Of a stretch of DNA of 64,000 nucleotides, positions 7,874 to 36,284 are shown piece by piece. Origin of the DNA: Methylophaga thalassica MP (lineage in GTDB: Bacteria > Pseudomonadota > Gammaproteobacteria > Nitrosococcales > Methylophagaceae); NCBI RefSeq assembly GCF_000214595.1, contig NZ_AFIG01000001.1:1840382-1904381 (forward strand), in the 5' to 3' direction. Both the position numbers and the translations under genes were made by a program. Below the pieces are notes generated by a model. It ran no database searches. It saw only the letters and a list, made by a program, of their open reading frames with translations, and had not been told where the DNA came from. Every line of letters begins with the position of its first letter. Positions within the stretch are counted from its first letter, which is position 1.

Positions 7874-9454
7874 ATGTCATTAAACAGCCATCACCTTTTA
7901 GTGGAAGTCGCCCTGGACTTAGCTAACAGTTTAAATACCGGAGACCGGTTTGATCGCCTGTTAGGCTCGATAAGAAAAGCCATATCCTGTGATGCTGTGG
8001 TATTACTCGGCTTTCGTGATGGCATGCTGACCCCATTAGCCATGCAGGGATTATCGTCAGACGTATTAGGCAGGCGCTTTTTACTTGCAGAACACCCACG
8101 ACTTCAACATATCTGTGAGTCAAACAAACCTCTGTTATTTGCTAACGACTGTGATTTACCCGATCCCTATGATGGTTTGTTGGTATCTCAATTAGGTAAC
8201 TTACCCATTCATTCCTGTATGGGCTTACCCCTGTATTCAGACAATCAGCTTATTGGTGTTGTCACTTTAGATAGCTTTAAACCACATGCTTTTGATGACA
8301 TCGAATTAAAAACGCTGGAATTAATCACCGCTTTATCCGCTGCTACTTTAAAAACGGCATTAGAGTTCAAAAAGCTGGAGTTAAGTGCCCATCATGCCCA
8401 AGAAGTCGTCAAAGAGTTAACTCAGGAAGCCTTATTAAAAGACGGCGGCGAGATTATTGGGCAAAGCCCGGTGATGCAAACGCTGAAAAACAATATCGAA
8501 CTGGTCTCAGGCTCCAATTTCACCGTACTGATTACTGGCGAAACCGGCGTCGGCAAAGAACTGGTAGCCAGGAAAATACATCAACTTTCAGATCGTAAAA
8601 CGGCTCCGCTAGTGTATTTGAACTGTGCTTCCCTGCCAGAGTCATTGGTTGAAAGTGAGTTATTTGGCCACACCAAAGGCGCGTTTACCGGTGCAGATAA
8701 AGCCCGTGCTGGTAAGTTTCAGTTAGCTAATGGTGGCACTTTGTTTCTGGATGAGGTCGGTGAGTTACCCCTCAGCACACAAAGCAAATTATTACGGGTG
8801 TTGCAGTCGGGCGAGATTCAACCTGTCGGCCAAGACAAAGTCGAACATGTGGATGTACGCATTATTGCTGCCACTAATAGAAATCTGGAAAAAGAAGTCG
8901 AGAATGAACAGTTCCGCTCCGACCTTTATCATCGTCTGATGGTGTACCCCATTCACCTTCCCAGCCTGAAAGATCGTGGAGAAGACGTGTTGCTTTTGGC
9001 CGGATATTTTCTCGAACGCATCAGTCGCCAATTAAATATCCGCCAGCTTCGATTAACGTCAGAAGCCAACACCAGCCTGCTTAATTATTCCTGGCCTGGC
9101 AATGTACGTGAGCTGGAACATGTGATCAGCCGGGCAGCATTAAGAGCAAAAGCCATATCACCTCATCAGGCGATTGTGTCACTCACTTCTGAGTTACTTG
9201 AAATTACGTCTGAAAAACCCGTAGGCAACTTACCTGAGGTGGATACTAACCCAGCTAACAGCCTGCCCAATATGAGTTTAAAAACCGCGACGGAAGCCTT
9301 TCAAAAAAGAATCATCGCCCACGCATTACAACAAGCCGATGGTAACTGGGCACATGCGGCAAAACAGTTGCAGATGGATCGTTCAAACCTTATCCGCATG
9401 GCGAAACGGCTTAACATCAACGTTCATAAAAATACGCAGATAACGTTTAACTGA
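7874..9454 (+). CDS. norR: NO-responsive sigma-54 activator NorR
   Basis: The chosen start (MSLNSHHLLVEVAL, ATG 7874) gives 526 residues and aligns with the start of known NorR. A longer frame from a TTG at 7829 would begin inside a NorR operator and is unlikely. Domains: an NO-sensing GAF domain (residues ~1-170, with DVLGRRF and LPDPYDGL), an AAA+ domain (~200-430) with Walker A GETGVGKE, the sigma-54 contact loop GAFTGA and Walker B GGTLFLDE, and a Fis-type HTH at ~475-520. It senses NO through non-haem iron and activates the divergent hmp promoter. No norVW genes are present, so Hmp appears to be its local target. Confidence 0.93.
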   Translation: MSLNSHHLLVEVALDLANSLNTGDRFDRLLGSIRKAISCDAVVLLGFRDGMLTPLAMQGLSSDVLGRRFLLAEHPRLQHICESNKPLLFANDCDLPDPYDGLLVSQLGNLPIHSCMGLPLYSDNQLIGVVTLDSFKPHAFDDIELKTLELITALSAATLKTALEFKKLELSAHHAQEVVKELTQEALLKDGGEIIGQSPVMQTLKNNIELVSGSNFTVLITGETGVGKELVARKIHQLSDRKTAPLVYLNCASLPESLVESELFGHTKGAFTGADKARAGKFQLANGGTLFLDEVGELPLSTQSKLLRVLQSGEIQPVGQDKVEHVDVRIIAATNRNLEKEVENEQFRSDLYHRLMVYPIHLPSLKDRGEDVLLLAGYFLERISRQLNIRQLRLTSEANTSLLNYSWPGNVRELEHVISRAALRAKAISPHQAIVSLTSELLEITSEKPVGNLPEVDTNPANSLPNMSLKTATEAFQKRIIAHALQQADGNWAHAAKQLQMDRSNLIRMAKRLNINVHKNTQITFN

Positions 9455-9469
9455 CTCGATATAAGCAGA

Positions 9470-9505
9470 TGAGAAAAGGGACAGACTTATTTTTCCGACT
9501 CATTC
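9470..9505 (+). other. Remnant resembling a RAYT-associated end
   Basis: GAAAAGGGACAGACTTATTTTTC just downstream of norR resembles the ends that flank REP-associated tyrosine transposase units in gammaproteobacteria. No transposase frame is present. It may mark an old insertion at the left border of the right cassette cluster. Confidence 0.35.
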
Positions 9506-9670
9506 TCAAGTTTCAAATGTTCTAGCGCTTTGATTATCCGGTTTCATCTGTAGAACAAAACTTTCTAACCTATGAAAATAATCAAGTTGGCTGCCCCCTT
9601 GATTGTTTTCTACCCAGTCACCTAAATCACGATAGAAAATAGTTATGGGGTATTGTGGCTTGTTATTCAT
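9506..9670 (-). CDS. Small hypothetical protein (54 residues), probable cassette gene
   Basis: An ATG at 9670 opens a 54-residue frame, MNNKPQYPITIFYRDLGDWV and onward, ending at 9506. It sits immediately after the attC at 9694-9774, where the next cassette's gene is expected. The short repeat at 9580-9604 lies inside and in frame, encoding NQGGSQLDYF. Codons look plausible, but nothing is recognised. It may be a real short cassette protein or a frame left open by chance. Confidence 0.4.
   Translation of the reverse strand: MNNKPQYPITIFYRDLGDWVENNQGGSQLDYFHRLESFVLQMKPDNQSARTFET
9580..9604. repeat. Short palindrome-ended repeat, copy 3
   Basis: AATCAAG and CTTGATT flank TTGGCTGCCCC. This is a diverged copy of the elements at 1306-1330 and 2006-2031, so both cassette clusters carry it. 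It lies within the 54-residue open frame. Confidence 0.6.
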
Positions 9671-9693
9671 ATTTTACTTTTAATGTTTAGTTC

Positions 9694-9774
9694 ACATAAC
9701 GACTGAAGCAGCAAAAAAACAAAAGCGAAGTGAAACGTAGCTTTTGGTTTTCCGACTGCCTTTACTTGTTAAAC
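9694..9774 (-). other. attC site of the 9762-10358 cassette
   Basis: On the minus strand it runs from GTTTAAC (a perfect RYYYAAC core overlapping the gene's stop codon) to GTTATGTG. Between them, complementary blocks (AGGCAGTCGGAAAACC against the GCTTCAGTC side, and CAAAAGC with GCTTTTG) allow the extended imperfect hairpin expected of an attC about 80 nt long. Confidence 0.8.
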
Positions 9775-10358
9775 CTAGCTCGATATTCGCTGAGCTTCTT
9801 AACATACTGTTTGATGAACTCACTGTGTGCAAACTCTTTATCCAGTTTTAGAACTCTTTGAACCTCAGCGCTTATTTCTTCACACTGCTCAAAAGTAGCA
9901 CCATTATTGCCATACAAAATCCCACTTGGCCATTCGTGCTCGGAGTATTCTAACCACGAGACTAAAGCCTTGAGCAAAAGCAACCTAGCTTCATCGTTGT
10001 TTGGATCAAGTTCATGGCTTTTGCTATATAAACTCAACTCACTGACCCAATTTAGCTCTTGGTGGAGTTGCTGGGCCTGATATATGTTTTGTGCAAGCTT
10101 ACCCAGCCAAAGAGTACTATCAAAGTCATTGTTCTCGTAGCCGGATTTTAAAATTGGGTATACCAGTTCATGAAATATTTCATGACGAATTCTTGAATGC
10201 CTATTTGTTTGTAATGTAGGCAGAAACTCCCAAACCCATTCTTCTCTCTCTCGTCCATTTTCGAATGATGAAATAAAGTCACGTAGCGCCTTTGATGCCT
10301 GCTTCTTCAGTCCCTTTTCTTCTAGTTCTCTGAACTCTTGATAATGCTCGATAATCAT
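9762..10358 (-). CDS. Hypothetical helical protein, cassette gene
   Basis: The 198-residue protein is acidic and almost wholly helical, with a pattern of paired helices that resembles TPR-like repeats (for example SKSHELDPNNDEARLLLLKAL near residue 110). It has no signal peptide, membrane segment or catalytic motif that I recognise. Its stop codon overlaps an attC, and another attC lies just upstream of its start, so it is a complete single-gene cassette. Confidence 0.65.
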   Translation of the reverse strand: MIIEHYQEFRELEEKGLKKQASKALRDFISSFENGREREEWVWEFLPTLQTNRHSRIRHEIFHELVYPILKSGYENNDFDSTLWLGKLAQNIYQAQQLHQELNWVSELSLYSKSHELDPNNDEARLLLLKALVSWLEYSEHEWPSGILYGNNGATFEQCEEISAEVQRVLKLDKEFAHSEFIKQYVKKLSEYRARFNK

Positions 10359-10363
10359 AGAGG

Positions 10364-10419
10364 GTTAACGCTTCTATTCAGCCGACGCGTTAGCGGTCGG
10401 CTGCAGTGTTTTGTTAGAT
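10364..10419 (-). other. attC site of the 10426-10905 cassette
   Basis: On the minus strand the cores are ATCTAAC (perfect RYYYAAC) and GTTAACC, about 56 nt apart. The centre is a strong imperfect hairpin, GCAGCCGACCGC with GCGTCGGCTGA. This is a textbook short attC. Confidence 0.88.
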
Positions 10420-10425
10420 TTTGAC

Positions 10426-10905
10426 TCAATTTTTGAGAGCATAATGTTTACCTGCTGGACTCTGAACTAGCTCTCTAATGAGTTCTTCCATGTGTTCGTA
10501 TCCTTCCAAGAATAGTTCATCACCCTGAACTGTAATAAGCTCTATCGCATTATTGCGCTGAGTGAAATGATTAAAGGTAACCACTCTGTTTAACGGGAAT
10601 GAAACTTTAGAACCACCCTTTTTTGTCGAATGAATCCACAAGTTATTACCCTCAACCTCAAGGCTATCCTCACTGCTGGTGTAAAGCACGAAAGGAATGT
10701 AGTTATTAAGTACGAGCACCATGCCAGCAATCATCATTATTAATGAGAGTGCCAGCCCAAACCACAACAACACAACATCCGTATTTGAGTACTTTGTGTA
10801 TATCCAGAACACCATACAGCCGGTAATAAACATCCAAAAAAGTAATTTACCTAAATAAAAAACATGCTCCTTAAGGCGTTCTTTATATGGCTGCTTGTAT
10901 TGCAT
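10426..10905 (-). CDS. Hypothetical membrane protein, cassette gene
   Basis: The start chosen is the ATG at 10905 (MQYKQPYKERLKEHVFY), giving 159 residues. An ATG further upstream (10938) would lie inside the neighbouring attC. Two membrane helices (about residues 18-40 and 45-68) are followed by a soluble beta-rich domain (about 75-150) that resembles a PH-like or DUF-type membrane-anchored fold: LEVEGNNLWIHST then VSFPLNRVVTFNHF. Function unknown. It is flanked by attC sites on both sides. Confidence 0.6.
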   Translation of the reverse strand: MQYKQPYKERLKEHVFYLGKLLFWMFITGCMVFWIYTKYSNTDVVLLWFGLALSLIMMIAGMVLVLNNYIPFVLYTSSEDSLEVEGNNLWIHSTKKGGSKVSFPLNRVVTFNHFTQRNNAIELITVQGDELFLEGYEHMEELIRELVQSPAGKHYALKN

Positions 10906-28116: not shown

Positions 28117-28207
28117 TACAAACAACTTTTCAGCTGCATTTTGTTTGTATTTCTCTCTTGTCTACGTGCTGAGCCTTGGGGTGAACATAAGTTCACCCCT
28201 TTTTTTT
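28117..28207 (+). ncRNA. Putative ~90-nt small RNA
   Basis: Between a sigma-54-like promoter (28091-28106) and a perfect intrinsic terminator there is about 60 nt without a plausible start codon plus ribosome site. The layout, promoter then short unannotated transcript then a GC stem with eight T, is that of a trans-acting Hfq-type small RNA. The 5' part is A/C-rich and the middle is U-rich (TTCTCTCTTGTC). No known family is recognised. The ends are inferred from the two signals only. Confidence 0.5.
28178..28207 (+). terminator. Intrinsic terminator
   Basis: GGGGTGAAC, loop ATAA, GTTCACCCC, then eight T. A perfect 9-bp stem with a T-tract on the + strand only. No + strand protein gene lies upstream of it, which is why a small RNA is proposed. 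It also rules out an N-terminal extension of the following transporter that would span it. Confidence 0.9.
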
Positions 28208-28276
28208 GTCTCAAATTGTCCCATCAGTTCTGTTAGCATAGCAGTATCATTCATCGGCAATTACTCTCTGAATTCT

Positions 28277-29209
28277 ATGCATCAGCGCACTATTGAAAAC
28301 CTTCAACAAGATCATGATTTTGTCACGGTAAATCCCCATGCTGAGAAGCGTACCCGATATGTGCTTTTCCTTACTGTGATTACCATGGTTGCAGAAATTA
28401 TCGCCGGTACGCTATTTGGCTCAATGGCATTGCTTGCTGATGGCTGGCATATGGCTACCCATGTCGTCGCTTTTCTGATTACTTTATTTGCTTATTCTTA
28501 CGCGGCGAAAAATAAAGCAAATGCAGCCTTTGCTTTTGGTACAGGAAAAGTAAGTGTTCTGGGCGGCTTTGCCAGTGCAATTGCTCTGGGAGTGGTGGCT
28601 TTAATGATGTTGCTTGAATCTGTTGAGCGACTGGTTAATCCACATCAAATTGAATTCAGTGCCGCGATTCTTGTCGCTGTGATTGGTCTCGTTGTTAATC
28701 TGATCAGTGCTCTATTATTAAAAGATAACCATGCACACAGTCATGATCATGGACATGCTCATTCGCATCACGATCACAATCTGAAAGCCGCCTATATGCA
28801 TGTATTGGCAGATGCCTTAACCTCAATTCTCGCCATCATTGCCCTTATTGGTGCGATGTATCTTGGCTGGTTATGGTTAGATGCCACAATGGGTATTATC
28901 GGCGCAGCCATTATTAGTATCTGGGCCATTGGCCTAATTCGGGAAACAAGTCCAGTCTTACTCGACGGCAGTATTGATAAAAGCTATAGCCAAGCCATCC
29001 AGAACTGTATTGAAAGTGATGCAGATAATCGTATCGTTGATTTTCATATTTGGCATGTGAGTGCTAATCATTTTGCTGCCATCATTTCCATTGTGACATC
29101 TGAGCCTAAAGCCACGCATCATTACAAGTCACTACTCACTGAATTTGATCGTCTTTCTCACATCACGATTGAAGTCAATCAATGTCACGATAAGTCATGT
29201 CGCCATTAA
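28277..29209 (+). CDS. Cation diffusion facilitator, DmeF-like metal exporter
   Basis: The start is put at ATG 28277 (MHQRTIENLQQDHDF), giving 310 residues; a longer frame would run through the terminator at 28178-28207. It has six membrane helices with the CDF metal site (ALLADGWHMATHV, with HxxxD-type ligands in helix 2, and MHVLADALTSILA in helix 5), a His-rich loop (HAHSHDHGHAHSHHDH) between helices 4 and 5, and a cytoplasmic C-terminal domain. It exports divalent metals (Co, Ni or Zn) by proton exchange. The His-rich loop and D-x-W-H motif suggest the DmeF group. No dmeR-type repressor is adjacent. Confidence 0.88.
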   Translation: MHQRTIENLQQDHDFVTVNPHAEKRTRYVLFLTVITMVAEIIAGTLFGSMALLADGWHMATHVVAFLITLFAYSYAAKNKANAAFAFGTGKVSVLGGFASAIALGVVALMMLLESVERLVNPHQIEFSAAILVAVIGLVVNLISALLLKDNHAHSHDHGHAHSHHDHNLKAAYMHVLADALTSILAIIALIGAMYLGWLWLDATMGIIGAAIISIWAIGLIRETSPVLLDGSIDKSYSQAIQNCIESDADNRIVDFHIWHVSANHFAAIISIVTSEPKATHHYKSLLTEFDRLSHITIEVNQCHDKSCRH

Positions 29210-29270
29210 AAATTGATTTATAACAAGTTTTTCAAAGAAAACTCGACCTTCGTTCAATATCTTAAATAGG

Positions 29271-29288
29271 CGGTACGAATACTGCATT
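29271..29288 (+). promoter_or_regulatory. Sigma-54-type promoter of the glucosylglycerate operon
   Basis: CGGTACGAATACTGCATT has GG and GC exactly 10 bp apart; the -24 box matches 5 of 7 and the -12 box 4 of 5 consensus bases. The predicted start is near 29297, about 30 bp before the first gene. This fits the known link between glucosylglycerate accumulation and nitrogen limitation in other bacteria, but the activator is unknown. Confidence 0.55.
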
Positions 29289-29324
29289 AAGCTACCCATA
29301 ATCAATTAAAGCCACCTGAGAGAT

Positions 29325-31103
29325 ATGGATATGCTGAATATCGACATCAGCGACTTTCTTCAAAAGCATCAATTACCTGATAGTTATCAAACGCTTGCGC
29401 GAGACTGGTATCTACCCATAATAGAAGAAATCGCTACGCACCAGAACAGTGCAAAAAGGACGATCACGATTGGTATTAATGGTGCACAAGGTTCAGGAAA
29501 AAGTACGCTAGCGCAGTTGGCTGTTTATGTCCTCACTCAGCATTATTCGCTGAGTGTTGTCTCTCTTTCATTAGATGATTTCTATTTTACACGTCAGGAA
29601 AGAACACAACTGGGTCAGGGTATCCATCCTCTTTTAGCCACACGCGGTGTGCCAGGAACACACGATATAACACTTGCCAGAAGAACCATTACTCAGCTTA
29701 TTCATCAGCAATTTCCAGTGAGTATTCCGCGTTTCAATAAAGCAGAAGATGATCGCTTCCCTGTTGAATCTGCAGAAATTATTACTCATCCTGTCGATGT
29801 CATCGTGCTTGAGGGTTGGTGTTTAGGTGCAGAAGCCCAACATGAATCGTCACTCATCCAGCCAGTTAATGATTTGGAAGAAATTGAAGACAAAGATCAG
29901 GCATGGCGCCGTTACGTTAACGAGCAGCTAGCACGGTTTTATCCAAAGCTGTTTGAACTGATAGATATCTGGATCATGCTCAAAGCCCCATCATTTGATT
30001 GTGTTTTTCAATGGCGGTTGGAACAGGAAAACAAATTAAAACGAAGTTTGTCAGAGTCTGATAAACAAACACAGATCATGGATGAAAAAGCGGTCGGACG
30101 CTTTATTAAATTTTATCAACGTATTACCGAAAATACCCTCAACACGCTGCCTAAGAAAGTGAACTATCTATTTGAACTCGATCAAAACCGTCAGATAACA
30201 AAATTAACCAGACCGACTCAATCCACTTTGAATACAGACTTGCCTTGCCAATGGTTAGTCTTCACCGATATGGATGGGAGCCTACTGGATCACCATAACT
30301 ACCATTTTGATGAAGCCATTCCGACCTTAACAGCGCTTGAACAGAACCATATTCCCGTCATCCCTGTGACCAGTAAAACTGCTGCTGAAGTGGAATTAAT
30401 CAGAGACAGCTTAGCTAATCACCACCCTTTTATTATTGAAAATGGTGCTGCAGTCTATATCCCACAAGACTATTTTGAAAAGCAACCCGAAGGCACTGAA
30501 AAACGAGGAAAATACTGGGTGAAAAGTTTTGTCCAGCCCCGTAGCTATTGGCAATCGCTCATTAATCAGCTGCGTCCCAAATATCAGAATGACTTTGTTA
30601 CCTTTGCTGATGCAGGCATCGACGGCATTATTGCCATGACAGGTCTGAATGTTCATGCGGCCGCTTGTGCAGCAAGAAGAGAGTTTGGCGAACCCGTGTC
30701 CTGGCATGGCAATGGTAATCTGAAACAACAATTTATTGCTGAACTCAATGCGCTGGGAGCCAATATTCTTGAAGGCGGCCGTTTTCTTCATGTATCTGGG
30801 CAATGTGACAAGGGACGGGCCTTAAAATGGTTGACAGATATGTATCAGAACACGATGCCCGAACAAGTTATACAAACCTTAGCGATAGGTGATAGCCAAA
30901 ATGACAAAGCCATGCTTGAACAGGCTGATCATGCCTTAGTCATCCGCTCACCGGTACATGGTCTACCTGATATCGACAGAACACATAATTTAACGGTGTC
31001 CACATTTTTTGGCCCTAAAGGTTGGGCTGAAGGCGTCACTCAAATCATCGATGCAAAGCTGCATTCCGATTCATTTAACTTACCCCGAGGCAATCATGGC
31101 TGA
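29325..31103 (+). CDS. Fused D-glycerate 3-kinase and glucosyl-3-phosphoglycerate phosphatase
   Basis: The 592-residue protein joins two enzymes. Residues ~1-300 are a plant-type glycerate kinase: P-loop GINGAQGSGKST at 50-61, LDDFYFTR at 83-90 and LLATRGVPGTHD. Residues ~308-590 are a HAD phosphatase of the mannosyl-3-phosphoglycerate phosphatase type: the nucleophile motif DMDGSLLD at 315-322, VTSKTAAEVELI, and the late motif AIGDSQNDKAML. The kinase would turn glycerate into 3-phosphoglycerate, and the phosphatase would strip phosphate from glucosyl-3-phosphoglycerate made by the next gene. A start at 29331 (third codon) is favoured by the GAGAG spacing. It overlaps the next gene by 8 bp. 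Confidence 0.85.
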   Translation: MDMLNIDISDFLQKHQLPDSYQTLARDWYLPIIEEIATHQNSAKRTITIGINGAQGSGKSTLAQLAVYVLTQHYSLSVVSLSLDDFYFTRQERTQLGQGIHPLLATRGVPGTHDITLARRTITQLIHQQFPVSIPRFNKAEDDRFPVESAEIITHPVDVIVLEGWCLGAEAQHESSLIQPVNDLEEIEDKDQAWRRYVNEQLARFYPKLFELIDIWIMLKAPSFDCVFQWRLEQENKLKRSLSESDKQTQIMDEKAVGRFIKFYQRITENTLNTLPKKVNYLFELDQNRQITKLTRPTQSTLNTDLPCQWLVFTDMDGSLLDHHNYHFDEAIPTLTALEQNHIPVIPVTSKTAAEVELIRDSLANHHPFIIENGAAVYIPQDYFEKQPEGTEKRGKYWVKSFVQPRSYWQSLINQLRPKYQNDFVTFADAGIDGIIAMTGLNVHAAACAARREFGEPVSWHGNGNLKQQFIAELNALGANILEGGRFLHVSGQCDKGRALKWLTDMYQNTMPEQVIQTLAIGDSQNDKAMLEQADHALVIRSPVHGLPDIDRTHNLTVSTFFGPKGWAEGVTQIIDAKLHSDSFNLPRGNHG

Positions 31104-32319
31104 TTTTCACCAGAATGGGATTATTACCACACTTCATAATCTAACCAATCGTCACCTAGCTGATTTAGAGAGTGATCTTGTACAGTTCAGCAAACAAAGA
31201 CCAATGGGATTACTTCTGCCCTCTCTTTTCTCAGAGCTTGAAGGCGAGGCCTTACCGCAAATAATTCAACAGCTAAAAACGGTACCCTACTTATCTGAAA
31301 TTGTGATTGGTCTCGACCGCGCTAATGCCGATCAATATCGCCATGCACTGACCTTCTTTTCTGCCTTACCACAACACCATCGTATTTTATGGAATGATGG
31401 CCCCAGGCTCACCGCCATAGATGAAGAGTTACAGTCATTAGGACTGGCACCGAAAGAAAAAGGTAAAGGTCGTAACGTGTGGTATTGCATGGGTTACATC
31501 ATTGCTTCAGGCAAGACAGAATCTATTGCTCTCCATGATTGTGACATCGTAACTTACACCAGTGATTTACTGGCACGATTGATCTATCCGGTTGCTAACC
31601 CCATGTTTAACTACGAATTTTGTAAAGGCTACTACGCCCGCGTTGCCAGTGGCAAACTGAATGGTCGTGTGAATCGTTTGTTAGTGACGCCACTTATCCG
31701 TGCATTAAAAATGGTGGTAGGCAACCAACCCTATCTTGAGTACATGGATAGCTTCCGCTACCCATTAGCGGGCGAGTTCTCTTTTAGACGCGATGTATTA
31801 TCCGATATTCGTATTCCCAGTGACTGGGGACTGGAAATTGGTGTGTTATCAGAAATGCATCGTAACTATGCCAATAACAGACTGTGTCAGGTCGACGTTG
31901 CCCAAGTTTATGATCACAAACATCAGGAATTATCGCCGGATGATCAGCAAGCCGGCTTATCAAAAATGTCGATTGATATTGCGAAATCCCTGTTCAGAAA
32001 ATTAGCAACGAAAGGCACTGTTTTTACGCCTGAATCATTCCGTACCCTGAAAGCCACCTATTACCGAATCGCACTCGACTTTGTTGAAACCTACCACAAT
32101 GATGCTGTGATGAATGGGCTGCATTTTGATATTCATCAGGAAGAAGAATCAGTGGAAATGTTCGCTAAAAATATTATGGATGCAGGGCAGATGTTCCTGG
32201 AAAATCCGATGGAAGTCCCTTTTACTCCGAGTTGGAGCCGCGTTCAGAGCGCTCTTCCAGATATTTTTGAAAGACTGTATGAGGCTGTTGAAGCTGATTA
32301 TCAGGAATTTTCCGCATAA
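31096..32319 (+). CDS. gpgS: Glucosyl-3-phosphoglycerate synthase (GT81 family)
   Basis: The start at ATG 31096 (MADFHQNGIITTLHNL) lies inside the end of the previous gene, giving 407 residues. GT81 features are present: an early PSLFSELEGEAL segment, VIGLDRANADQY, KGKGRNVWYCMGYI, the metal motif ALHDCDIVTY, and the acceptor-site stretch YPLAGEFSFRRDVL...DWGLEIGVLSE. It joins glucose from UDP-glucose (or GDP-glucose) to 3-phosphoglycerate in the cytoplasm, the first step of glucosylglycerate synthesis. The fused phosphatase upstream completes it. The neighbours galU and a glycerate kinase can supply both substrates. Confidence 0.9.
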   Translation: MADFHQNGIITTLHNLTNRHLADLESDLVQFSKQRPMGLLLPSLFSELEGEALPQIIQQLKTVPYLSEIVIGLDRANADQYRHALTFFSALPQHHRILWNDGPRLTAIDEELQSLGLAPKEKGKGRNVWYCMGYIIASGKTESIALHDCDIVTYTSDLLARLIYPVANPMFNYEFCKGYYARVASGKLNGRVNRLLVTPLIRALKMVVGNQPYLEYMDSFRYPLAGEFSFRRDVLSDIRIPSDWGLEIGVLSEMHRNYANNRLCQVDVAQVYDHKHQELSPDDQQAGLSKMSIDIAKSLFRKLATKGTVFTPESFRTLKATYYRIALDFVETYHNDAVMNGLHFDIHQEEESVEMFAKNIMDAGQMFLENPMEVPFTPSWSRVQSALPDIFERLYEAVEADYQEFSA

Positions 32320-32331
32320 GGGACACTGAAC

Positions 32332-34086
32332 ATGACACCTAATGATGAGCAACTACAGCAATTAAAACAAACAGTTCTCCATCATCTCACCGCGATTTAT
32401 GCTGATACTTCACCGGAGCTTTCTCTCCCCGCTTTATGTGATGACATCATCAACATTATGCGGTTGAATCAGGATTACAAAGAAAGCGTTTCACACAGAA
32501 ATAACTGGGATCAAAATGACGTTATTCTGATTACTTACGGCAACAGTATTAAAAAGGAAGGGGAAGCCCCTTTAAAAACCTTACACCGTTTCTTGAACAA
32601 AGAAGTCAGTGGCTATATCAATGGTGTGCATATTTTGCCATTTTTCCCCTACTGTTCTGATGATGGCTTTGCGGTAATGGATTATTACGAAGTCAATAAA
32701 GCGCTGGGAGACTGGGACGACATCGAAGCTATCGCCAATGATTATCGTCTCATGGCAGATCTTGTTATCAATCATGGCTCCAGCAGTGGTACGTGGTTTA
32801 AGAATTTCATTAAAGGCGATGGACCTGGCCATGACTATTTCTTTACTACATCACCTTCAGCCCCCATCAGTCAGGTTGTTCGGCCACGCACCAGCCCGTT
32901 ATTACGCGAGACTGAAACACATGACGGGACTCAATATGTCTGGTGTACCTTCAGCCATACTCAAGTCGACTTCGATTTCCGTAATCCTGAAGTTCTGAAG
33001 GAATTTATTAATATCGTTCGTTTTTATCTGGATAAAGGCGTTCATATTTTCCGGCTGGATGCTGTCGCTTTTTTATGGAAAAAAATTGGCACGAACTGCC
33101 TTAATCTGCCGGAAACCCATGAAGTTGTCCGTTTGATGCGAAGCCTGATCCAGCATGCCGATCCCGATGCTGTGATCATTACTGAAACCAATATTCCTAA
33201 CCGGGAAAACCTGAGTTATTTTGGTAATGCCAATGAAGCACACTGCATCTATAATTTTTCATTACCACCGTTACTGGTAAACACGCTCGTTACGGGCGAT
33301 TGTTTTTATTTAAAACAATGGCTGATGAGCATGCCGCCAGCACAACATGGCACGGCCTACTTTAATTTTATTGCTTCACATGATGGTATTGGCCTAAGAC
33401 CAGCTGAAGGATTACTCAGCGAAGCAGAAATTGCCTCATTAATCAGTACTATGCAGCAATTCGGCGGTCGTATTTCCTGGCGTGAAGGTGAGAATGGCGT
33501 TAAAAAACCTTATGAAATCAATATTTCATTGTTTGATGCGCTGCAAGGAACGACGTCAGGCAAAGATGAGTGGAATATAGACCGTTTTATTTGCGCACAT
33601 GCCATCATGTTGGCACTAGAAGGAATTCCCGGCATTTATATCCATAGTCTACTTGCCACCAGCAATGATATTGACAAGTTAGAACAAACTGAACAAAACC
33701 GTTCGATCAATCGTCATGAATGGGATGAAGACGCTTTGATGGCTGAACTGGCGACACCGACATCACAACATGCTCAGGTATCAGGTTTACTCAAAAAGCT
33801 CATTCATTTAAGAAAACAACAACGGGCTTTTCATCCTAATGCCACTCAGTTTACACTGCACCTTGGTGAAAAACTGTTCGGTTTCTGGCGACAAAGTATG
33901 GACAGAAGACAAAGCATCTTCTGCATCTATAATGTTACAGATACCGAACAACCACTGCGTATCGCCAACTTAAATTTAGTTGTCACGGATAGATGGTGGG
34001 ACCTGATTAGCGGTGTTATTCTAGATGGTTCATCTGACGTTATTACAGTTGCGCCATACCAAGTATTATGGATTACCAATGGCTAA
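32332..34086 (+). CDS. GH13_18 sugar phosphorylase, probable glucosylglycerate phosphorylase
   Basis: The 584-residue protein is a sucrose-phosphorylase-like GH13 enzyme: [25 protein letters not shown] in the first part of the barrel, [11 protein letters not shown], the nucleophile motif [13 protein letters not shown], the acid/base Glu in [10 protein letters not shown], and [10 protein letters not shown]. Members split sucrose, glucosylglycerol or glucosylglycerate with phosphate. Because it directly follows gpgS (12-bp gap) and a glycerate kinase, glucosylglycerate phosphorylase (to glucose-1-phosphate and D-glycerate) is the best fit. Sucrose phosphorylase remains possible but less consistent with the operon. 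Confidence 0.82.
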
Positions 34087-34148
34087 GGTATTGTCATCAG
34101 ACTTTCATACCTATTAGCTAAGCTATATAAAAAAATAAGGAACAATGA

Positions 34149-35003
34149 ATGCAACCAGTTAAAAAAATTCGTAAATGTCTATTCCCTGTAGCAGGTTATG
34201 GCACACGATTCCTGCCGGCGACTAAAGCCATGCCCAAAGAAATGCTTCCTGTTGTTAACAAACCCTTAATTCAATATGGTGTTGAAGAAGCCATTGAAGC
34301 AGGTATTAACCAAGTTGGATTTATTACAGGCCGGGGCAAACGTGCCATTGCTGATCACTTCGATACCAGTTATGAACTAGAGCATCAGATTCGCGGCACA
34401 AGTAAAGAAAAGCACCTCGAAGATATCCGTGCCGTTATGGATACCTGTGACTTTATCTTCATGAGGCAACGTGAAATGTTAGGTCTTGGTCACGCTATCC
34501 TGACAGGACAACCTATTATTGGTGATGAACCATTTGCTGTTATTTTAGCGGATGACCTTTGCGCACGAACTGATGAAAACGTATCCAAACGCGCCCTAGG
34601 TCAGCTGGTTGAACTCTATGAAAAATATAACTGCAGTGTTATCGCCATTGAAGAAGTCCCCGGCGACAATATTAGTAGTTATGGTGTGATATCTGGTCGT
34701 GAAATCGAAGACGGTGTTTATGAAGTCGATGACATGGTGGAAAAACCAAAACCAGAAGATGCGCCAAGTCAGCTGGGTATTATTGGTCGTTATGTGTTAA
34801 CACCAGATATTTTCGAATACATTGAAAAAACGCCGCCGGGTGCTAACGGTGAAGTCCAAATCACCGATGCTATACGCACACTAGCCAAAGAAAAGCGTGT
34901 TCTGGCACTGAAATTTAAAGGTCATCGTTTCGACTGCGGTAGTATTGACGGCTTTGTTGAGGCCACCAATTATTACTATCAGCGTGATCATGTGAAAAAA
35001 TAA
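34149..35003 (+). CDS. galU: UTP-glucose-1-phosphate uridylyltransferase
   Basis: The 284-residue protein has the GalU signature VAGYGTRFLPATKAMPKEMLPVVNKPLIQYGVEEA at its start, then GLGHAILTGQPIIGDEPFAVILADDL and VEKPKPEDAPS. It makes UDP-glucose from glucose-1-phosphate and UTP. In this operon it would re-use the glucose-1-phosphate released by the phosphorylase and feed GpgS; UDP-glucose also serves envelope polysaccharides. It is 62 bp downstream of the phosphorylase and ends at a strong terminator. Confidence 0.96.
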   Translation: MQPVKKIRKCLFPVAGYGTRFLPATKAMPKEMLPVVNKPLIQYGVEEAIEAGINQVGFITGRGKRAIADHFDTSYELEHQIRGTSKEKHLEDIRAVMDTCDFIFMRQREMLGLGHAILTGQPIIGDEPFAVILADDLCARTDENVSKRALGQLVELYEKYNCSVIAIEEVPGDNISSYGVISGREIEDGVYEVDDMVEKPKPEDAPSQLGIIGRYVLTPDIFEYIEKTPPGANGEVQITDAIRTLAKEKRVLALKFKGHRFDCGSIDGFVEATNYYYQRDHVKK

Positions 35004-35021
35004 GTCGTATTATTAAGTTTG

Positions 35022-35053
35022 AAAAAAAGCCGGCCCTGTTGCCGGCTTTTTTT
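35022..35053. terminator. Bidirectional terminator after galU and dinB
   Basis: AAAAAAAGCCGGC and GCCGGCTTTTTTT flank a CCTGTT loop, forming a GC-rich stem with A- and T-tracts. It ends galU on the + strand and the convergent dinB on the - strand. Confidence 0.92.
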
Positions 35054-36284
35054 ATATGGTCTTTCGGTGACCTTTGGGTTTCCATGCCGGGGCAATCACG
35101 TTGGGCATGGTGGATTTTTGTAATAATCTGGCCGGTGCCAGAGTCAGCTCGCCATAACGATAATTCACTTTATCTACCGTCTGATTAAGATGTTCTCTTT
35201 GCAGATCGGGCTGTGCAAATAAGTCCAGTTGCTTACCTTGCCGAGGCGATAATGCTGTCACCTGTACTTGCCACACACCTTGCCCCGCCCAGTAAAAATC
35301 AACAAAGGCTTTACATAGCTGGTAAATCACTTGTCCATCATCAGTGTAGACACCGGCATGTGCTTTTGTTTTAAGCCAGCCTCTCTCCGTTTTTAAACCA
35401 ATAAAAAAGCACTCCGCCTGATAACAAAAACAACGCATCCTAGCCGCGACTTTTTCAGCCATATGTTGTAAATAGGTCAATATGATATTTTTTTGAGCCG
35501 TTTTAGGTGGCAAAACCTTTCCATGACCGATGCTCTTAGGTGCTTTAACATTAAAATGTAAAGGTTCTGGATCCAGCCCTTGCGCCATTAGCCATATTCG
35601 CCGGCCTAAATGCCCAAAGCGTTTCGCCAGTAAACTCATTGGTATTTTTTTCATATCACCACAGCGCTCTACACCGTAATGTCTCAGAAAGCGGCCAATG
35701 CCTTTATTAATACCACTCAGAGCTGTCACCATTTCTGATGCCAACACTTCAGCAGCTAAGTCTGGGTGAATCACCTTTAGTCCGTCAGGTTTAGCTTTTT
35801 TAGCAGCGAATTTCGCTGTGGTTTTATCCCCACTGATCCCTATCGAACAACGTAAACCAGACACTTGCCAGACTCTTTTTTTTATCAAATATCCAATATC
35901 TGTCGCCCCCTTATATAAGCTTTGGCAACGACTTAAATCGAGAAACGCTTCATCCACACTAAACACTTCCACATCAGGGGTAATGTCGATGAGCCCTTCC
36001 ATAATTCGGGTTGATAACTCAGCATAGCGATAAGGACGTGAAGGAGCATGAATGAGGCCAGGACATAACTGCCTGGCCTGTTTCAGACGCATACCGGTAT
36101 GCACACCAAACGCTCTGGCTTCGTATGAACAAGTGATGATGGTGGTTCCCTGTGTACCATTAGTGACAGCAACAGGTTTCTTAAACCAGTTACGGTTATC
36201 CATTTGCTCAATTTGAGCAAAGAAACAATCCATATCAATTAAGACGATCATCCTTGACCACGGTGCAGATGAATCAAAGGCCAT
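35052..36284 (-). CDS. dinB: Y-family translesion DNA polymerase (DinB/Pol IV-like)
   Basis: The 410-residue protein has the Y-family catalytic palm (LIDMDCFFAQIEQMDN and SVDEAFLDLS), finger residues SYEARAFGVHTGM, a helix-hairpin-helix segment (ALSGINKGIGRFLRHYGVERCGDM) and a little-finger domain. Near the C-terminus QLDLFAQ is a beta-clamp-binding motif. It copies across damaged DNA. It lies 3 bp after lexA in the same direction, so it is an SOS operon under LexA control. The sequence is closer to Pol IV than to UmuC, but the lexA linkage recalls the lexA2-type SOS mutagenesis cassettes. Confidence 0.88.
   Translation of the reverse strand: MAFDSSAPWSRMIVLIDMDCFFAQIEQMDNRNWFKKPVAVTNGTQGTTIITCSYEARAFGVHTGMRLKQARQLCPGLIHAPSRPYRYAELSTRIMEGLIDITPDVEVFSVDEAFLDLSRCQSLYKGATDIGYLIKKRVWQVSGLRCSIGISGDKTTAKFAAKKAKPDGLKVIHPDLAAEVLASEMVTALSGINKGIGRFLRHYGVERCGDMKKIPMSLLAKRFGHLGRRIWLMAQGLDPEPLHFNVKAPKSIGHGKVLPPKTAQKNIILTYLQHMAEKVAARMRCFCYQAECFFIGLKTERGWLKTKAHAGVYTDDGQVIYQLCKAFVDFYWAGQGVWQVQVTALSPRQGKQLDLFAQPDLQREHLNQTVDKVNYRYGELTLAPARLLQKSTMPNVIAPAWKPKGHRKTI

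Follow-up and report, generated by a model that had tools for sequence, protein, structure and literature searches.

Four intact open reading frames (ORFs) located on the plus strand at positions 29325-35003 of a 64,000-nucleotide stretch of the Methylophaga thalassica MP genome (contig NZ_AFIG01000001.1, positions 1,840,382 to 1,904,381; this whole stretch is hereafter the window) quite probably form an operon that both makes and salvages 2-O-alpha-glucosylglycerate, with the first ORF encoding a single polypeptide that combines glycerate kinase and phosphatase domains. In synthesis, glucosyl-3-phosphoglycerate synthase (GpgS) would transfer glucose from UDP-glucose onto 3-phosphoglycerate, and the phosphatase domain of the fusion, a member of the HAD family, would strip the phosphate from the GpgS product to yield glucosylglycerate. 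In salvage, a GH13 glucosylglycerate phosphorylase (GGaP) would use phosphate to cleave glucosylglycerate into glucose-1-phosphate and D-glycerate, to be converted by GalU to UDP-glucose and by the kinase domain to 3-phosphoglycerate, respectively. The fusion would hold both steps expected to be irreversible, with the phosphatase pulling synthesis by removing the GpgS product and the kinase pulling breakdown by removing glycerate and so driving phosphorolysis forward. The product of the plant class III kinase (Arabidopsis GLYK) is 3-phosphoglycerate and that of the Escherichia coli kinases is 2-phosphoglycerate (PMC4378991), so that glycerate released in salvage would return directly as the GpgS substrate. 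Our analysis covers protein families, motifs, gene order, co-occurrence, and repeated and convergent fusions, from which we infer the enzyme activities, the sugar carried by the HAD substrate, the directions of flux and the physiological trigger.

Sequence comparisons confirmed the fusion ORF (29325..31103, plus strand, 592 aa), assigned by profile, PDB, genus and structure comparisons, as a class III (plant-type) glycerate 3-kinase joined to an MpgP/GpgP-type phosphatase. The kinase half (residues ~1-295; 29325..30209), with the GLYK/PRK-like P-loop fold, matched the PDB D-glycerate 3-kinases 6ckg (E 7e-21) and 7xpc (E 4e-17); a Pfam scan of the fusion returned no kinase match at E 0.001. The HAD-IIB phosphatase half (residues 309-576; 30249..31052), recognized by profiles, PDB matches and Foldseek, scored 201.4 bits with TIGR01486 (MPGP family; cut-off 164.75) and carries the DxD and GDxxND motifs. 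In the AlphaFold model, the two domains are well formed (mean pLDDT 88.9, overall pTM 0.55) and are connected by a low-confidence linker (residues ~296-308, 30210..30248; pLDDT below 50 at 303-306), which looks flexible in the model, and Foldseek searches with this model retrieved an MpgP target with a TM score of 0.89 and the glycerate 3-kinases 6ckg and 7xpc with scores of 0.73 and 0.70. When the window protein was aligned with 46 of the 57 fused proteins from named loci described below (47 sequences in total), the motif residues of both halves were invariant: G53, Q55, G56, G58 and K59 of GAQGSGKS (residues 53-60; 29481..29504), the P-loop (Walker A), D315, D317 and G318 of DMDGS (30267..30281), HAD motif I, and G522, D523, N526 and D527 of GDSQND (30888..30905), HAD motif IV. 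The invariance of both motif sets, together with a match running from the kinase through the phosphatase half in 20 of the 23 genomes of the Methylophaga genus, with no stop codon in all but one of these, indicates that the fused frame is not a chance occurrence.

The stop codon of the fusion (31101-31103) overlaps the probable start codon of GpgS (31096..32319, plus strand; 407 aa from ATG 31096), assigned by NCBIfam and PDB matches and by re-inspection of the start; the mechanical ORF call at TTG 31009 was set aside, and ATG 31096 is the most likely start. GpgS is followed after 12 nt by GGaP (32332..34086, plus strand), assigned by Pfam, PDB and motif comparisons, and GGaP after 62 nt by GalU, UTP-glucose-1-phosphate uridylyltransferase (34149..35003, plus strand), which scored 395.4 bits with the NCBIfam model TIGR01099 (cut-off 326.8). 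The numbers of promoter-like (15, against a shuffle mean of 13.7) and terminator-like (6 against 5.0) sites within 29100-35200 are close to the shuffle level and uninformative, so that the putative co-transcription of the fusion, GpgS, GGaP and galU is judged from strand and spacing only. The ORF upstream (28145-29209) encodes a Co/Ni cation diffusion facilitator of the DmeF type, with a score above the cut-off of NF033827.

Strict glucosylglycerate phosphorylases have been distinguished by two marks, (T/S)ETN at strand 5 and, in loop A, a Glu in place of the Gln of most other clades (PMC7178133). Both are present in the aligned sequence of the window phosphorylase, namely, TETN at residues 284-287 (33181..33192) and Glu395 in PYEIN (33514..33516) at the Y(E/Q)xN site that we take as loop A, the loop having been placed by the aligned YQ/YE pattern rather than by structure; the sucrose phosphorylase 7qqj has LPEIH and YQIN (Gln) at the aligned sites. 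Among related phosphorylases of at least 400 aa (shorter ones were dropped), ETN is found in 81 of 81 and the strict loop pattern in 80, the exception being PYEAN, and in a second set, with two loci in common with the first, ETN is present in 20 of 21 and the loop Glu, by a looser pattern, in all 21. The window protein is 38% identical to YcjM, annotated as glucosylglycerate phosphorylase in E. coli K-12, and its score with the sucrose phosphorylase equivalog TIGR03852 is 221, below the cut-off of 334. Sucrose phosphorylase identity is unlikely by motifs and model scores, and these two marks likewise make it unlikely that the enzyme acts on sucrose only, the outcome that the original prediction had named as damaging to its proposal. 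A second GH13 protein (G000:C3:1604765-1606366, minus strand; 662-aa open frame), 29% identical to GGaP and possibly, as a guess, amylosucrase-like, recurs in most of the genomes of this genus.

The host genome of the window is 3.26 Mb in size, and its closest named relatives in the search belong to Methylophaga, with the M. sulfidovorans locus encoding a fusion 93% identical to that of the window. The fusion has a single match in the host genome, where no class I (PF02595) or class II (PF13660) glycerate kinase was found by searches that matched 5 and 4 of 14 control genomes, respectively, so that the fused kinase half is the sole glycerate kinase recognized there. The window galU is also the only copy in the genome over the TIGR01099 cut-off and is therefore presumably shared with other pathways of the cell.

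Within the genus, the fusion was found in 20 of the 23 genomes searched, and GpgS was present in the same 20 (genomes and loci of the comparison are denoted G and L). A full GGaP accompanies the fusion in 19 of these; the exception, G001, is 55% complete, and its contig ends inside GpgS. In M. thiooxydans DMS010 (G002, L022:7001-8764), the kinase half is interrupted by an in-frame stop, reflecting either an error or decay, whereas the frames of the phosphatase half and of the remaining genes of the cluster are open. Neither the fusion nor GpgS was matched in G007 (near complete), G011 and G018 (both incomplete). Elsewhere in the family, the kinase stands alone in four genomes (G025, G026, G028 and G032), in which neither GpgS nor GGaP was matched. 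In G030, kinase and HAD are separated by one stop, and GpgS and GGaP are present. In G025, the class III kinase is directly followed by galU (L131:6037-7834), a pair that may be a remnant of the operon.

To look beyond the family, we scanned genome contigs, obtaining 571 pattern hits and 482 relatives, the best 80 of which yielded 79 named loci, a sample biased towards the fusion and including several stretches that end at contig ends. Kinase and phosphatase are fused in 57 loci, interrupted in one, and adjacent but separate in 15, and the kinase occurs without the phosphatase in the remaining 6. All 73 two-domain loci have GpgS downstream on the same strand, and 65 have GGaP, in 63 cases downstream on the same strand and in 2 on the opposite strand. 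The fused loci include those of Moritella, Glaciecola, other Alteromonadaceae, and Pseudoalteromonas, where the sequence is diverged and the public annotation reads "HAD-IIB family hydrolase"; in Pseudoalteromonas Bsw20308, the fused three-gene cluster is located between genes for uracil permease and cytochrome b562, and in strain HL-AS2 the kinase stands alone at the corresponding locus. An unfused kinase-HAD-GpgS set was also found on a contig labelled Akkermansiaceae (L084), through either transfer or misbinning.

In a sample independent of the fusion, 50 of 369 gammaproteobacterial genomes matched GpgS, of which 46 with strong matches were used and 4 weak ones dropped. The HAD gene lies directly upstream of GpgS in 42 of the 46; the other four are G064 (see below), G315, where it is further off, G223 and G381. 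The class III kinase lies directly upstream in 16 clusters: 3 are fused, one in-frame TGA splits a further 1, and 12 are separate. The separate ones include G064 as well as G077, where contig ends truncate the locus and another contig carries a second piece of the kinase. This kinase was detected in 41 of the 369 genomes, so that the 16 cases of joint occurrence with GpgS compare with 5.1 expected under independence (41 x 46 / 369, uncorrected for relatedness).

The remaining 30 GpgS genomes, those without a class III kinase, were searched with class I and class II queries over 8.6 to 18 kb around GpgS (some stretches being cut by contig ends). Class I kinases (PF02595) were found near the cluster in G230, G092 and G216, and in G091 a 666-aa fusion of a class I kinase to GalU (L161:4093-6093, plus strand; TIGR00045, 439 bits, cut-off 168; TIGR01099, 380 bits, cut-off 327) precedes HAD and GpgS; GGaP lies on the opposite strand, and the genome has a second GalU-like match, 46% identical. 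Genome-wide, class I kinases occur in 12 of the 30 genomes, including these 4 at the cluster, G209 at a distance of ~9 kb and G315 elsewhere; class II kinases were sought near GpgS only. Two further genomes show variants of the class I arrangement: in G791 (L195, L196), a kinase-GalU frame is open across the join of the two domains, with the contig ending inside GalU and a separate contig carrying GalU, HAD, GpgS and GGaP, and in G334 the class I kinase and GalU are separate neighbors, with no HAD, GpgS or GGaP match within 16 kb. A third architecture was found in G315, where a 720-aa ORF (L169:10552-12714, minus strand) consists of HAD (residues 1-260; TIGR01486, 236 bits) followed by a class II kinase (DUF4147 and MOFRL; residues 275-705), an order reversed relative to the window fusion, in which the kinase comes first. 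GpgS lies 3.4 kb from this ORF, past a transposase-like ORF (recognized by eye), a mechanosensitive-channel-like ORF (8506-9240) and a second glycosyltransferase, similar to GpgS and mannosylglycerate synthase (9252-10517), and no GGaP match was found in the stretch around the fusion. Fusions of this type were limited to G315 within its family (1 of 8 genomes) and were absent from the matches listed for a 398-genome sample of the phylum. Overall, a glycerate kinase is near or fused to 21 of the 46 GpgS clusters. Given that the three classes of glycerate kinases have no common origin (PMC2063504), three unrelated kinases meet this pathway, as judged by neighborhood or fusion. In some other bacteria, the cluster comes with unrelated kinases or with a class I kinase fused to GalU, which argues that both glycerate kinase and GalU are parts of the pathway, in line with the role that the original prediction gave them.

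The history of the class III fusion was explored with trees, the combined kinase and HAD tree being built from the 56 rows (33 fused and 23 adjacent) that remained after thinning at 85% identity. On this combined tree, the fusion state must change at least 8 times, with strongly supported branches forcing 3 of the changes; the HAD tree alone requires 9 (2 strongly forced), and the kinase tree, scored for the fused label, 11 with and 9 without the kinase-only rows (2 strongly forced). A single origin was rejected, as one fused clade costs 258 log-likelihood units (approximately unbiased test p 1.4e-5, on a quick combined tree). In 6 of the 23 unfused rows (L031, L049, L077, L079, L081 and L084), the two genes are in one frame and separated by a single stop codon. 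Bacteria thus seem to have reached the fusion more than once, most simply through loss of the stop codon between neighboring kinase and phosphatase genes, gain being indistinguishable here from loss (fission).

Several observations weigh against the proposed pathway. Matched along its full length, the model NF040724 gives GpgS 373 bits, where the cut-off is 700, and NF010496 gives it 69 bits (cut-off 262); the phosphatase half falls just short of NF001218, the closest HAD equivalog (358.1, cut-off 362). No glycerate kinase was found in the fetched stretch of 25 of the 46 GpgS clusters, galU is present in just 18 of the 73 two-domain loci (upstream in 2 of them), and in G064 (L163), with kinase, GpgS and GGaP present, no HAD was detected. 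Conversely, 25 of the 41 genomes with a class III kinase lack GpgS, which implies that this kinase also has other uses. Among 13 kinase-only loci, there is no general conserved partner of the stand-alone kinase: one group of 4 has a common run of neighbors, one family recurs in 3 loci at varying positions, and two loci each have a few more neighbors in common. In that group (L083, L089, L092 and L130), the first gene of the run is amidohydrolase-like, by eye. Finally, the available portions of the Methylophaga literature deal with ectoine or vitamin B12 rather than glucosylglycerate (PMC1224877, PMC5924519, PMC11050368), and the literature searched yielded neither an assay of these enzymes nor a measurement of the metabolites concerned.

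Other readings of the gene set account for these data less well. It is very improbable that the cluster handles a different glycoside, such as mannosylglycerate: the best HAD models are indeed named mannosyl-3-phosphoglycerate phosphatase, but at E 0.001 the models that recognize the transferase are two for GpgS and none for a mannosyl enzyme, PDB GpgS matches it weakly (E 2e-4), the phosphorylase bears the GGaP marks, and the expected product of GalU is UDP-glucose. We also consider it unlikely that the kinase serves synthesis, with scavenged glycerate being phosphorylated, glucosylated and dephosphorylated, and the fusion bracketing GpgS as an anabolic module. Such a role would agree with the invariable position of GpgS downstream of the two domains and with 3-phosphoglycerate, the product of the Arabidopsis class III enzyme (PMC4378991), being the GpgS substrate. 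Yet, a phosphorylase expected to release glycerate accompanies nearly all of these loci (65 of 73), and the class I kinase of G091 is joined to GalU, which would use the glucose-1-phosphate that GGaP also releases. Moreover, 3-phosphoglycerate is normally supplied by central metabolism.

A more serious question is whether the fusion matters at all. That stops between close in-frame genes are occasionally lost and the two halves work independently is a real possibility, falling somewhat short of an even chance. The single stop codons separating 6 of the 23 unfused pairs, the repeated changes of fusion state, and the low-confidence linker with a pTM of 0.55 are as expected of such a neutral process. 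Against it, the fusion is retained in all 20 matching genomes of the genus (one stop-interrupted) and in the diverged Pseudoalteromonas, and one genome holds a fusion of separate origin, in which an unrelated kinase follows the phosphatase. Most likely, joining the halves means that they are expressed together and concentrated in one place, not that they form a rigid channel. The original prediction went further, proposing a closed cycle with entry and exit controlled by one polypeptide. All five activities are indeed encoded together, and a few other lineages (L050, L057 and L117, and G091) likewise have GalU with the cluster. However, if all steps ran at once, only ATP and UTP would be spent, so that separate phases are to be expected, and synthesis in one condition with salvage in another would fit better than continuous turning; furthermore, Pfam and NCBIfam scans revealed no further domain in the fusion, unfused forms are common, and the single GalU is presumably shared. 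A continuously turning cycle is accordingly improbable, and control through one polypeptide is not supported, given the common unfused neighbors, the at least 8 changes of state and the seemingly flexible linker. Equally doubtful is a two-way switch, in which the halves would be reciprocally regulated in one chain, committing the osmolyte pool to breakdown or synthesis, a design that would have been reached more than once, by placing a class III kinase ahead of the phosphatase and, in a single genome, an unrelated class II kinase behind it. The reading of the operon as a pathway for making and salvaging glucosylglycerate is well supported at the level of sequence; control by the fusion is speculation.

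The proposed pathway offers a concrete, testable route for glucosylglycerate turnover. The exact metabolic function of GGaP had not been experimentally confirmed as of 2020 (PMC7178133), and what class III glycerate kinases do in bacteria was described as unclear in 2007 (PMC2063504); a role for the latter in some gammaproteobacteria is proposed here. The association of three unrelated kinase classes with one pathway, by neighborhood or by differing fusions, amounts to a natural convergence experiment and argues for glycerate recovery coupled to synthesis. In addition, glucosylglycerate, a salt-protecting osmolyte, is predicted to occur in marine bacteria that use methanol; the literature, as far as available, names only ectoine for them.

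The gene set itself has been described: GGaP genes often adjoin those for glycerate kinase, GpgS or GpgP, and the GGaP gene clusters of Franceus et al. 2017 (via PMC7178133) resemble the window locus in content. No mention of a kinase-phosphatase, phosphatase-kinase or kinase-GalU fusion was found in the available portions of the literature searched, PMC7178133 included. The fusions and the recurrence of the pathway with unrelated kinases appear to be new within that literature. Both halves of the window protein have familiar relatives, which are similar in fold and sequence for the class III D-glycerate 3-kinases of plants, fungi and cyanobacteria (6ckg, 7xpc), and in fold and motifs for the MpgP/GpgP HAD-IIB phosphatases (Thermus MpgP, 3ztw; E. 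coli YedP, 1xvi); however, the window kinase is joined to a phosphatase, whereas those phosphatase structures are of stand-alone chains. PFK-2/FBPase-2 likewise combines a P-loop kinase and a phosphatase acting in opposite directions in one chain, but its phosphatase has an unrelated fold and its two activities act on the same substrate pair, and reciprocal regulation is only hypothetical for the window fusion. In the bifunctional mannosyl-3-phosphoglycerate synthase/phosphatase (NF011072), a phosphatase of the same family is fused within one osmolyte pathway as well, there to the synthase and in the window to the kinase.

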